From an uncultured Methylococcaceae bacterium (GTDB lineage Bacteria > Pseudomonadota > Gammaproteobacteria > Methylococcales > Methylomonadaceae): a stretch of DNA of 51,233 nucleotides. The notes under the pieces are model-generated. The model saw only the letters and a list, made by a program, of their open reading frames with translations. It was not told the origin of the DNA and did not search any database. The position numbers and the translations under genes were made by a program. The DNA lies in contig CAIXAE010000001.1 in assembly GCA_903917345.1 (NCBI GenBank), positions 1 to 51,233 on the forward strand, in the 5' to 3' direction. Below, piece after piece: positions 48,623 to 50,919 of this stretch. The stretch's first letter is position 1. Every line of letters begins with the position of its first letter.

Positions 48623-49363
48623 ATGACCGAACAAGATAGAGTATTTCAGCAAATCAATCGAATCGAAGACTTTGCCTTTGATGAAAAGGTGGCGAAAGTC
48701 TTTGATAACATGGTATCTAGAAGCGTGCCTTTTTATGATGAAGTGCAACGTATTCAAACGGACCTTATTATGGATTTTTTGCCCGAAACGGGCGGCATTG
48801 TGTGTGACTTAGGTTGTTCAACCGGCACATCCTTAGAATATCTCACTCGACATCCAAAATGTCCTGCTAACACCCAATTTATAGGTTATGACAATTCAGA
48901 ATCTATGCTGGATAAGGCCAGAGAAAAATTATCAGTCCAAATAGCGGAAGGTAAAATCCAGTTAATCACCGCAGACCTGTGTGATCTTCCACCCTTACCC
49001 ACTTGCAACATTGTTATTCTTAATTGGACGTTGCAATTCGTTAGACCTATTGGCAGAGAACAATTACTTAAAGACATTTATCAATCCATTAAACCAGGTG
49101 GCATTGTCTTACTGTCTGAAAAGATTCTAGTGAATGATCCCATTTTAAACCGCTTATATATTGATCATTACCTACAATTCAAAGTCTCTCAAAGTCATTA
49201 CACCGATATAGAAAATCAGCGTAAACGTGAAGCCCTTGAGAATGTCTTAATCCCTTATCGTTTAGATGAGAACTATAAATTACTTGAAAGAGCCGGCTTT
49301 GATCGTATAGGCACTTACTTTCAGTGGTTTAACTTTGCCTGCCTGCTTGCGGTAAAGATTTAA
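48623..49363 (+). CDS. cmoA: Carboxy-S-adenosylmethionine synthase
   Basis: 246 residues, methyltransferase fold. MTEQDRVFQQINRIEDFAFD, VAKVFDNMVSRSVPFYDE, the SAM motif VCDLGCSTGTSLEYL and FNFACLLAVK at the C-terminus match CmoA. It makes carboxy-SAM from SAM and prephenate for wobble uridine-34 modification. cmoB, often next to it, is not in the window. It lies 27 bp after purK, so it is possibly co-transcribed. Confidence 0.95.
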   Translation: MTEQDRVFQQINRIEDFAFDEKVAKVFDNMVSRSVPFYDEVQRIQTDLIMDFLPETGGIVCDLGCSTGTSLEYLTRHPKCPANTQFIGYDNSESMLDKAREKLSVQIAEGKIQLITADLCDLPPLPTCNIVILNWTLQFVRPIGREQLLKDIYQSIKPGGIVLLSEKILVNDPILNRLYIDHYLQFKVSQSHYTDIENQRKREALENVLIPYRLDENYKLLERAGFDRIGTYFQWFNFACLLAVKI

Positions 49364-49390
49364 GCATAAAATGGCTTAAACAATAACCCT

Positions 49391-49642
49391 TTTGCCACAA
49401 ACTGGAACCCGTTTGCTACAAAAGTCTTTCTGTTGACGTTAAAGGTATACTCGTTTGTCTTAAACCTTAAGACTTTTAGAGCAATTTAATGTCTGTTTGC
49501 TCTAAATAGGTATCCTTTCAGAGCAAACTAGATAAGGTTTACTTTAAACTAATATCCTTTTACTCTAAAAAGGATACTGTTTACTCTAAAAGTCTTGCCT
49601 TTTAGAGCATTCTGGTAACAATTTGCTGTATTTTTTATGAGT
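49391..49642 (+). repeat. 12-unit degenerate tandem repeat, exact 21-bp period
   Basis: Units begin at 49391, 49412, 49433, 49454, 49475, 49496, 49517, 49538, 49559, 49580, 49601 and 49622. Each starts with TTT (TTG or TTC once each), has a variable five-base block, AA near position 9-10, a second variable block, and usually ends CT or TG. The best-kept core is TTTRCTCTAAAA; three units carry a near-reverse form TTTAGAGCA or TTCAGAGCAAA. It fills the gap between the 3' ends of cmoA and the hydrolase gene. Stops occur in every tested forward frame, so it does not encode one repeat protein across its length. Confidence 0.85.
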
Positions 49643-49647
49643 AATGT

Positions 49648-50919
49648 TTAGTCTGTAGTCTCTGTCCATTCACAACGATCTTTTACCAAAGGCGCTGTTT
49701 GGGCATGACCAATTCCTTTAGCAATCAGGGCGATAACGCGATCATCTTTTGGGTAACCAATATGAGCTTCCATCGGGTTGGCTATCTTACCGATACCAAA
49801 CGCATCAAACACTTTTGCAATATTAATATTAATATTAGTCACTTGGCTACACAATCTAGCGTCCAAATATTTATCACTAAAATCATGTGGAATCGCGTAA
49901 CTTAAAAGATCATTAGGGTCACTAAAGGCAATAATTGAAGTTTCATTAAACATGCGAGAACCAAATTTAGGACTGCTCGCAGAACAATAGTCGGCTTTTT
50001 TCCCCGTAACTTCAGGAAGTTCTCTACCCAATTGCAACATGGGCAATTGATTGGATAGCATAAAGATTTGAACACGCTTATTTTGTAAAATCTCACGCTT
50101 CATTTTATTAATCGTGCGTAAAGTCGTCTTTTTTTCGGGTTGCTCCAGCAAAGACACCATACGCGTGATGCCATCAATAGTGATACGACTCCCTAAACTG
50201 TGAGAGACAAAAAAGATATCATCATATTTAAAGTTCTCATTGAGGCTATTACTAAAATCACAGCCATTACGACCTTCTTTGGGCAGTTGATCCCACTTAT
50301 CTTTACCCATCCAACACACCGCTTGTGCAAATGAGCGCAAAATTAACTCTCTACTTTTACCTAAATAGATAATGGGATCCGGACCACTGTCGTTGCTAAA
50401 CTTTTTGAGCATTTCATTCACCTCTGCCCGGCGAAATGAATACTCTCCTGAGTTATCGAAAGATAATAAAGCTTTTTGCTCACGCGTTATTTCTGACCAC
50501 GCTAATTCATAAAACCAAAGTTCTTTACTACTGTCCGCGTTTTGTAAGCGTGTCACCCTTAAATTACCTAGCTTTTCATCAGGATCACTAAACGACATCA
50601 GTTGGATTTCTTTATAGTTACTCACTTTAGCCGACAGATTCAGTTCTTTTGCCAACTTCTCCTGAAACTCTGTGGCATAGCCGGGTAAATGATCACCTAC
50701 TCCATGCACCATTAATAATTTAGTCTTAGCCTGAGGCCTATCTAAACTAGGCTCTATCCCTTCAAAGGGCTTACCCTTTACTTGACAAACGCGAGTATCT
50801 TCTGCATTTGATTTTTCTAAAACAGCTTCGGCGATGCCTTTACCAAAGCTAGCGCAACCCGATAAGTGTATGGCTAAACTCATAATGACGAGGGAATGTA
50901 TTAAGATCGCTAAACGCAT
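49648..50919 (-). CDS. Alpha/beta-hydrolase-like lipoprotein
   Basis: 423 residues with lipobox L-S-G-C (Cys22). The oxyanion region is KLLMVHGVGDHLPGY (67-81), the nucleophile elbow SHSLGS has Ser241, the likely acid is Asp334 or Asp337 in FSDPNDLLSY, and the likely His386 is in EAHIGY. The elbow has Ser for the first Gly of GxSxG. Several Cys may form disulfides. Probably an envelope esterase or lipase of unknown substrate. The stop lies right beside the 21-bp repeat array. The gene ends about 170 bp from the insertion-sequence boundary. Confidence 0.7.
   Translation of the reverse strand: MRLAILIHSLVIMSLAIHLSGCASFGKGIAEAVLEKSNAEDTRVCQVKGKPFEGIEPSLDRPQAKTKLLMVHGVGDHLPGYATEFQEKLAKELNLSAKVSNYKEIQLMSFSDPDEKLGNLRVTRLQNADSSKELWFYELAWSEITREQKALLSFDNSGEYSFRRAEVNEMLKKFSNDSGPDPIIYLGKSRELILRSFAQAVCWMGKDKWDQLPKEGRNGCDFSNSLNENFKYDDIFFVSHSLGSRITIDGITRMVSLLEQPEKKTTLRTINKMKREILQNKRVQIFMLSNQLPMLQLGRELPEVTGKKADYCSASSPKFGSRMFNETSIIAFSDPNDLLSYAIPHDFSDKYLDARLCSQVTNININIAKVFDAFGIGKIANPMEAHIGYPKDDRVIALIAKGIGHAQTAPLVKDRCEWTETTD

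Follow-up and report, generated by a model that had tools for sequence, protein, structure and literature searches.

Our analysis reports on a row of 21-bp units that fills the space between two genes in a 51,233-nucleotide stretch of DNA (hereafter the window), and that belongs to a family of arrays scattered over intergenic sites. The family is real and unusual: in this sequence form it was found only in Methylococcales among the genomes searched, and the open-access literature searched yielded no description of a phased TTT/AAA family. We propose, with a probability of roughly 0.4, that the array is an intergenic mosaic element acting at the DNA level, in which a putative dimeric protein probably has a row of operator-like sites. 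Action at the level of DNA is the better-supported reading, to which the putative protein and its presumed function are our additions. The array and its neighbors comprise the following features.

48623..49363, plus strand: left neighbor, carboxy-SAM synthase CmoA (TIGR00740, above cut-off), with its 3' end at the array
49370..49643, no strand assigned: 21-bp phased array, 12 clear units (49391-49642) and a weaker unit at 49370
49391..49411, no strand assigned: first full unit, a TTT-GCCAC-AAA core and a 10-bp spacer
49475..49537, no strand assigned: three adjacent units with the words AGAGC, GCTCT and AGAGC, one word in opposite orientations with the register unbroken
49538..49600, no strand assigned: three units with zero mismatches to the phased pattern
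49648..50919, minus strand: right neighbor, a 423-aa protein with a lipoprotein-like start by eye, its 3' end at the array

The original prediction of an exact 21-bp register of twelve units holds over 49391-49642. Each unit consists of TTT-RNNNY-AAA followed by a 10-bp spacer; at least four of the six anchor letters are present in all 12 units and all six in seven of them, while the weaker thirteenth unit at 49370 has four of six. The intergenic stretch between cmoA and the 423-aa gene is composed almost entirely of such 21-bp units. Period-21 column information reaches 17.4 bits in the array (18.1 at the best nearby phase) against a mean of 5.9, a standard deviation of 1.24 and a maximum of 12.7 in the rest of the window. 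Enrichment of the anchor pattern is also evident: the two-unit pattern TTTRNNNYAAA-N10-TTTRNNNYAAA, with at most one mismatch, has nine matches in the window, all inside the array, whereas the expectation over 100 shuffles is 0.19. Tandem Repeats Finder reports just 2.1 copies here because the unit interiors differ. The five bases between the anchors had been described as variable; the words do differ between units, but their ends are fixed, with a purine first and a pyrimidine last in 12 of 12. Three of the words read AGAGC and one GCTCT, the same word in both orientations. The broader claim, that anchors and spacing are kept while interiors differ, is borne out by this layout and by the homologous arrays described below.

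The genes on either side of the window array are convergent, cmoA ending at 49363 (plus strand) and the 423-aa gene at 49648 (minus strand). The 423-aa protein has no match in Pfam or NCBIfam, and its gene is present in 20 named relatives, of which all but one carry the label Methylococcaceae or other Methylococcales and one the label Alphaproteobacteria. The predicted location between two convergent 3' ends is correct for this array but is not a property of the family; 34 loci were examined, a set that includes orthologous ones, and 24 have a called gene on both sides, and these genes are divergent at 10, convergent at 6 and tandem at 8. It is scarcely credible that the array is a decayed coding repeat encoding seven-residue F-x-L-K units. 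A 21-bp period does equal seven codons, the F-x-L-K frame is open over 39 codons and several arrays contain short open frames, but the frame TTT-NNN-NTA is stop-free from its letters alone. All six frames of the window array contain stops, 3 to 10 in each across 49364-49647, as the original prediction had argued against a single coding repeat; these stops, and the presence of units in both orientations, also speak against its hint of decayed coding.

The two orientations recur across the family. The same five-base word is found both ways round within one array in 8 of 13 arrays, the window array included, and a test on the middle three bases gives 9 of 13 against 1 of 13 for a reversed-only control; some of the 13 arrays are mutually homologous, and only units with at least five of six anchors were counted. 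Inverted and direct units share one register. This within-array comparison takes the place of a pooled unit matrix as main evidence; the matrix was built from arrays read in arbitrary contig orientation, and part of its symmetry is therefore trivial. The spacers tend towards CAAG-RY-CTTG in seven genomes (G011, G016, G043, G046, G010, G013 and the window's own, G000) and towards GAAG-RY-CTTC in three (G015, G017, G019), and this tendency to an RY-centered palindrome gives each unit two dyads, about half a unit apart. One genome, G086, has a 42-bp double unit. Its locus L122 also carries, at 583-729 and immediately ahead of the TTT/AAA array, another 21-bp array whose sequence is unrelated (7 copies with 89% match). 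By eye, the TTT/AAA form in the window's genome seems to drift at L083 1769-2150 (contig C9) into a weakly conserved 21/42-bp register, and a different 21-bp repeat at a contig end (L031 4267-4497) looks like a coding heptad.

Further arrays are present in the window's own genome, on contigs C5, C9 and C23, and the existence of other 21-bp TTT/AAA arrays in relatives, one of the checks proposed for the prediction, is confirmed in 11 of 35 genomes of the genus. With at most three mismatches, the phased pattern occurs in 16 of the order's 311 genomes, and 11 of the 16 belong to the genus, whereas its backward control occurs in G086 only. The five positives outside the genus are G169, G207 and G700, which are iteron-like, and G086 and G115, which belong to another family of the order. 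A four-unit sequence model derived from 27 segments matches 14 of the 35 genus genomes (E<=0.001) and, at E<=0.0001 with stricter filters, 8 of 201 genomes of the order. Since just 11 (by pattern) or 14 (by model) of the 35 genus genomes carry arrays, the arrays are dispensable. A looser pattern is found in 33 of 397 other genomes of the phylum against 28 for the backward control, and there is therefore no signal outside the order. One array, L075, has no blastn match in plasmids or phages, and the type 1 consensus has none in viral contigs. Three viral contigs (L185, L186, L187) hold phased 21-bp arrays of another kind, near-identical and with TTT/AAA anchors.

Comparison of loci demonstrates that arrays came to lie at several intergenic places in related genomes. 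The window array aligns with L068 without a gap over 280 bp, with 29 mismatches, and the genes beside L068 are different; against L069 it has 53 mismatches in 325, and here the match extends into the 3' end of the right-hand gene. A cmoA match is present at 7 of 20 relatives' loci. At five of these seven (L027, L029, L033, L035, L040) cmoA is convergent with the right-hand gene within 36 bp and the site is empty. Arrays of one class keep their unit order at different loci, and eleven such arrays from four genomes have a common order and differ by substitutions and whole units. Around the arrays, a 210-aa protein family has an array upstream in five genomes (L068, L076, L077, L124, L138), with more than one array type represented and no Pfam match for L077 and L138. 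Genes of defence or toxin-antitoxin type were noticed in passing near arrays L068, L069, L072, L078, L124, L128 and L132; they comprise nucleotidyltransferase, AAA_21, TacA1 antitoxin with acetyltransferase, GmrSD, STIV_B116-like with Cas_NE0113, Zeta-type and AAA_15 genes.

The 21-bp spacing is retained as the sequences change. Of 70 homologous array pairs, which together hold 3,492 pairwise substitutions, 64 have a net length difference divisible by 21 and 6 are off by one base. All six off-register pairs set L072, L125 or L131 against L071 or L079, so one single-base difference suffices. In the raw alignments 39 gaps are of 21 or 42 and 101 are of other lengths, the latter cancelling within each pair. 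In a control on the relatives' upstream intergenic DNA (pairs with at least 90 aligned bases and 5-25% substitutions), 8 of 11 pairs have a net difference that 21 does not divide, and there are 33 gaps per 263 substitutions. A first control on flanks is weak because 11 of its 14 comparisons are gap-free (45 substitutions); three comparisons account for all 12 of its gaps, and in two of these three the same five gaps recur. The contrast between 64 of 70 array pairs and the upstream control supports the view that the spacing is kept between homologous copies. Two outcomes that the original prediction had named as counting against it did not appear: arrays exist in relatives, and the spacing is held between copies.

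The letters of the units change unevenly, although the statistics are of differing weight. At five loci of one class, differences affect 165 of 2142 cells at the anchors of live units, compared with 287 of 1785 for the five-base word and 585 of 3570 for the spacers; unit pairs differing at more than 11 of 21 sites were skipped, and the pairs are not independent. A stricter test, at three loci with the live units defined by a third locus, puts the ratio at 0.51 (95% range 0.10-1.08). As this range includes no difference, selection on the anchors is suggested, not proven. Arrays also differ in how far they have diverged relative to their surroundings: L082 and L135 are 82.5% alike, without gaps, between flanking genes that are 97.3% alike, and L073 and L126 are 90.9% alike between flanks at 98.1%, while L072 and L125 are 97.6% alike against 95.2% for the gene, the array being no more diverged.

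Exchange between arrays has left its own signature. In the orthologous pair L076/L124 units 0-10 are identical and 25 differences fall within units 11-19; at 15 of these 25, each of the two variants is also present elsewhere among the arrays of the genome that carries it, compared with 51 of 2000 random changes. This pattern is a clear indication of an ectopic gene-conversion tract. In two further pairs the signal of conversion is weak. L075 and L128 change abruptly, with units 4-9 identical and units 10-19 diverged, and 1 of 32 differences has both variants in own paralogues; for L073/L126, both variants occur in the genome's own other arrays at 6 of 49 differences.

These observations allow a simpler account that is nearly as likely as the row of operator-like sites, namely that the array is a non-autonomous, once-mobile intergenic element whose units recombine and convert one another, with no host function, and that its register simply results from exchange by whole units and from common descent. 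Register could indeed persist through these two processes alone. The dispersal and the empty sites, the conversion tract in L076/L124, the patchy presence in 11 of 35 genus genomes, the lack of a fixed orientation to genes and the faster divergence of some arrays than of their flanks (L082/L135, L073/L126) are what such an element would be expected to leave. Against it, net indels other than multiples of 21 amount to one base across the 70 array pairs, while other intergenic DNA has them in 8 of 11 pairs; the anchors seem more conserved in one of two tests, and the L072/L125 array has diverged no more than its gene. The account in terms of operator-like sites has its own counterweight, in that no protein binding the array was found.

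An origin in plasmid replication is doubtful but deserves some weight. The arrays would be chromosomal relatives or relics of replication-origin iterons, possibly titrating the initiators of incoming plasmids. Arrays in G169, G207 and G700 (by the phased pattern) and in G142 (by the sequence model) lie about 0.15-0.55 kb from genes with a Rep3_N domain, and all four have 21-bp periods; these four were found via the motif, however, so their likeness was selected. Rep3_N occurs in 7 of 35 genus genomes and is absent from G000 and 9 of 11 pattern-positive genomes, and in G016 and G050 it sits on contigs other than those of the arrays found. The repeats that accompany resident rep genes of the genus (8 of 10 loci) are other sequences by eye, with periods mostly of 20-22 bp. 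At the window array, whose neighbors are CmoA and the unnamed protein, the genome gives no Rep3_N match. These four arrays near Rep3_N genes, the 21-bp tandem repeats at L163, L164, L174 and L123, are probably iterons of plasmids or integrated plasmids.

A structured or processed RNA, with a transcript of the array forming long stems, is improbable; a processed repeat RNA was among the options of the original prediction. The folding energies of L075 (z -5.3) and of the window array (z -4.5) are low against dinucleotide shuffles, and 21 of 24 strand tests are negative against shuffles of unit order, with both strands of L138 and one strand of L082 below -2; but 21 of 24 strand tests lie within z -2 to +1 when unit order is shuffled, so the shuffles fold nearly as well. 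Arm matching is better than in unit shuffles (p<=0.05) in just 3 of 25 arrays, orientation relative to genes is free, and Rfam yields only two sub-threshold miRNA matches at the five loci searched. Stem positions lack consistent covariation, and the isolated low p values (type 1, d2 0.004 and d15 0.01; type 2, d12 below 0.001) fit no helix. In the pooled matrix, symmetric positions exceed shuffles at 12/19 in type 1 (2 of 500) and at 11/20 and 15/16 in type 3 (0 of 500, type 3 comprising 31 distinct units that alternate over 42 bp). We give slightly less credence still to intrinsically curved DNA, with a bend from phased short A-tracts as the selected property. Under two wedge-type models the curvature of the window array greatly exceeds that of the remaining window (z -7.7 and -7.2) and falls when the phase is broken, and under a 16-wedge model 9 of 11 type 1 arrays exceed the same anchors with random interiors. 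Under that same model, however, each of the 10 arrays that are not type 1 has less curvature than the same anchors with random interiors, as type 1 arrays also have under an AA-only model; type 2 arrays L080, L081, L134 and L138 stay at background level, and the window array scores z -0.9 with a crystal-based parameter set. The predicted curvature is model-dependent.

Returning to the row of operator-like sites, the sequence comparisons suggest a model in which the array belongs to an intergenic element present in dispersed copies, one that would act as double-stranded DNA. Each unit carries a pair of dyads separated by about 10.5 bp, one being TTT-RNNNY-AAA and the other a spacer tending in the commonest type to (C)AAG-RY-CTT(G), and 12 to 20 units would show the same contact face every two helical turns. 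We propose that a putative dimeric DNA-binding protein loads cooperatively along this face and produces a compact nucleoprotein patch between genes. The nucleoid-protein landing site named in the original prediction is still a candidate. Historically, the model has whole arrays placed at several intergenic sites, a step demonstrated by the loci compared here; arrays now occupy shared positions in related genomes and gain or lose whole 21-bp units, and block exchange by ectopic gene conversion, demonstrated at one orthologous pair and suggested at another, would keep the register. A bolder version, which we consider unlikely though worth stating, is that the arrays constitute a new class of chromosomal element, in which multi-locus phased-dyad arrays and a dedicated dimeric protein cluster or compact loci much as a dispersed centromere or silencer would, with the blocks between anchors reshuffled by in-register gene conversion.

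Bacterial intergenic repeats usually decay fast. The array family offers a test case for selection on spacing alone in intergenic DNA, since the two-turn spacing is kept despite heavy sequence change, inverted units stand in phase and copies appear to be patched from each other. A dozen or more phased sites would also make a sharp bait for a new DNA-binding protein in methanotrophs.

Several known systems share features with these arrays. REP sequences and BIMEs are dispersed intergenic palindromic units in both orientations, associated with RAYT transposases and bearing a GTAG/GGAG tetranucleotide beside the palindrome. The arrays described here are likewise dispersed and intergenic, with palindromic units in both orientations. 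RAYT has no match at E<=1e-10 in 5 of 11 pattern-positive genomes, the array bearers G000, G043, G046, G016 and G010, and G012 has 17 RAYT matches and no array. An array lies about 0.34 kb from a gene for a REP-associated tyrosine transposase at L133 (2136-2429 and 2765-3295), and an array and a RAYT gene are within about 0.3 kb of each other on contig C63 of G017 and its counterpart C204 of G019. We rejected a REP/RAYT interpretation, which had one shared neighbor locus and no genome-wide link.

Iterons resemble the phased arrays by analogy only. Published iterons measure 17-22 bp, and their cooperative binding is lost when the spacing shifts by half a turn (PMC4980987). Both are repeats about two helical turns apart, direct ones in iterons, and the 21-bp repeat length of the window array falls within the published range. 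Iterons beside Rep_3 genes come in about 4-6 near-identical copies close to rep, whereas the arrays have 12-20 diverged units in both orientations and G000 has no Rep3_N gene match. Of three iteron features examined, the window array has the repeat length and lacks the other two, an adjacent rep gene and near-identical repeats in one orientation.

The TAACTGA direct repeats of Beggiatoaceae, a seven-base unit mostly near putative start codons, are a comparable set of intergenic repeats in gammaproteobacteria (PMC4679880); the heptamer has 0 occurrences on either strand of 49364-49647. The dRS3 repeats of neisserial intergenic mosaic elements read ATTCCC-N8-GGGAAT and number almost 700 copies per genome, together with RS elements of 30-160 bp (PMC3898611). 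The window contains one dRS3 match with two mismatches, outside the array, where 1.88 are expected. The likeness lies in dispersed intergenic arrays whose short units vary in the middle between fixed inverted ends, and for which a role in recombination has been suggested (PMC3898611); in the arrays reported here, by comparison, the unit is TTT-N5-AAA, the 21-bp register is strict and each genome carries a handful of arrays.
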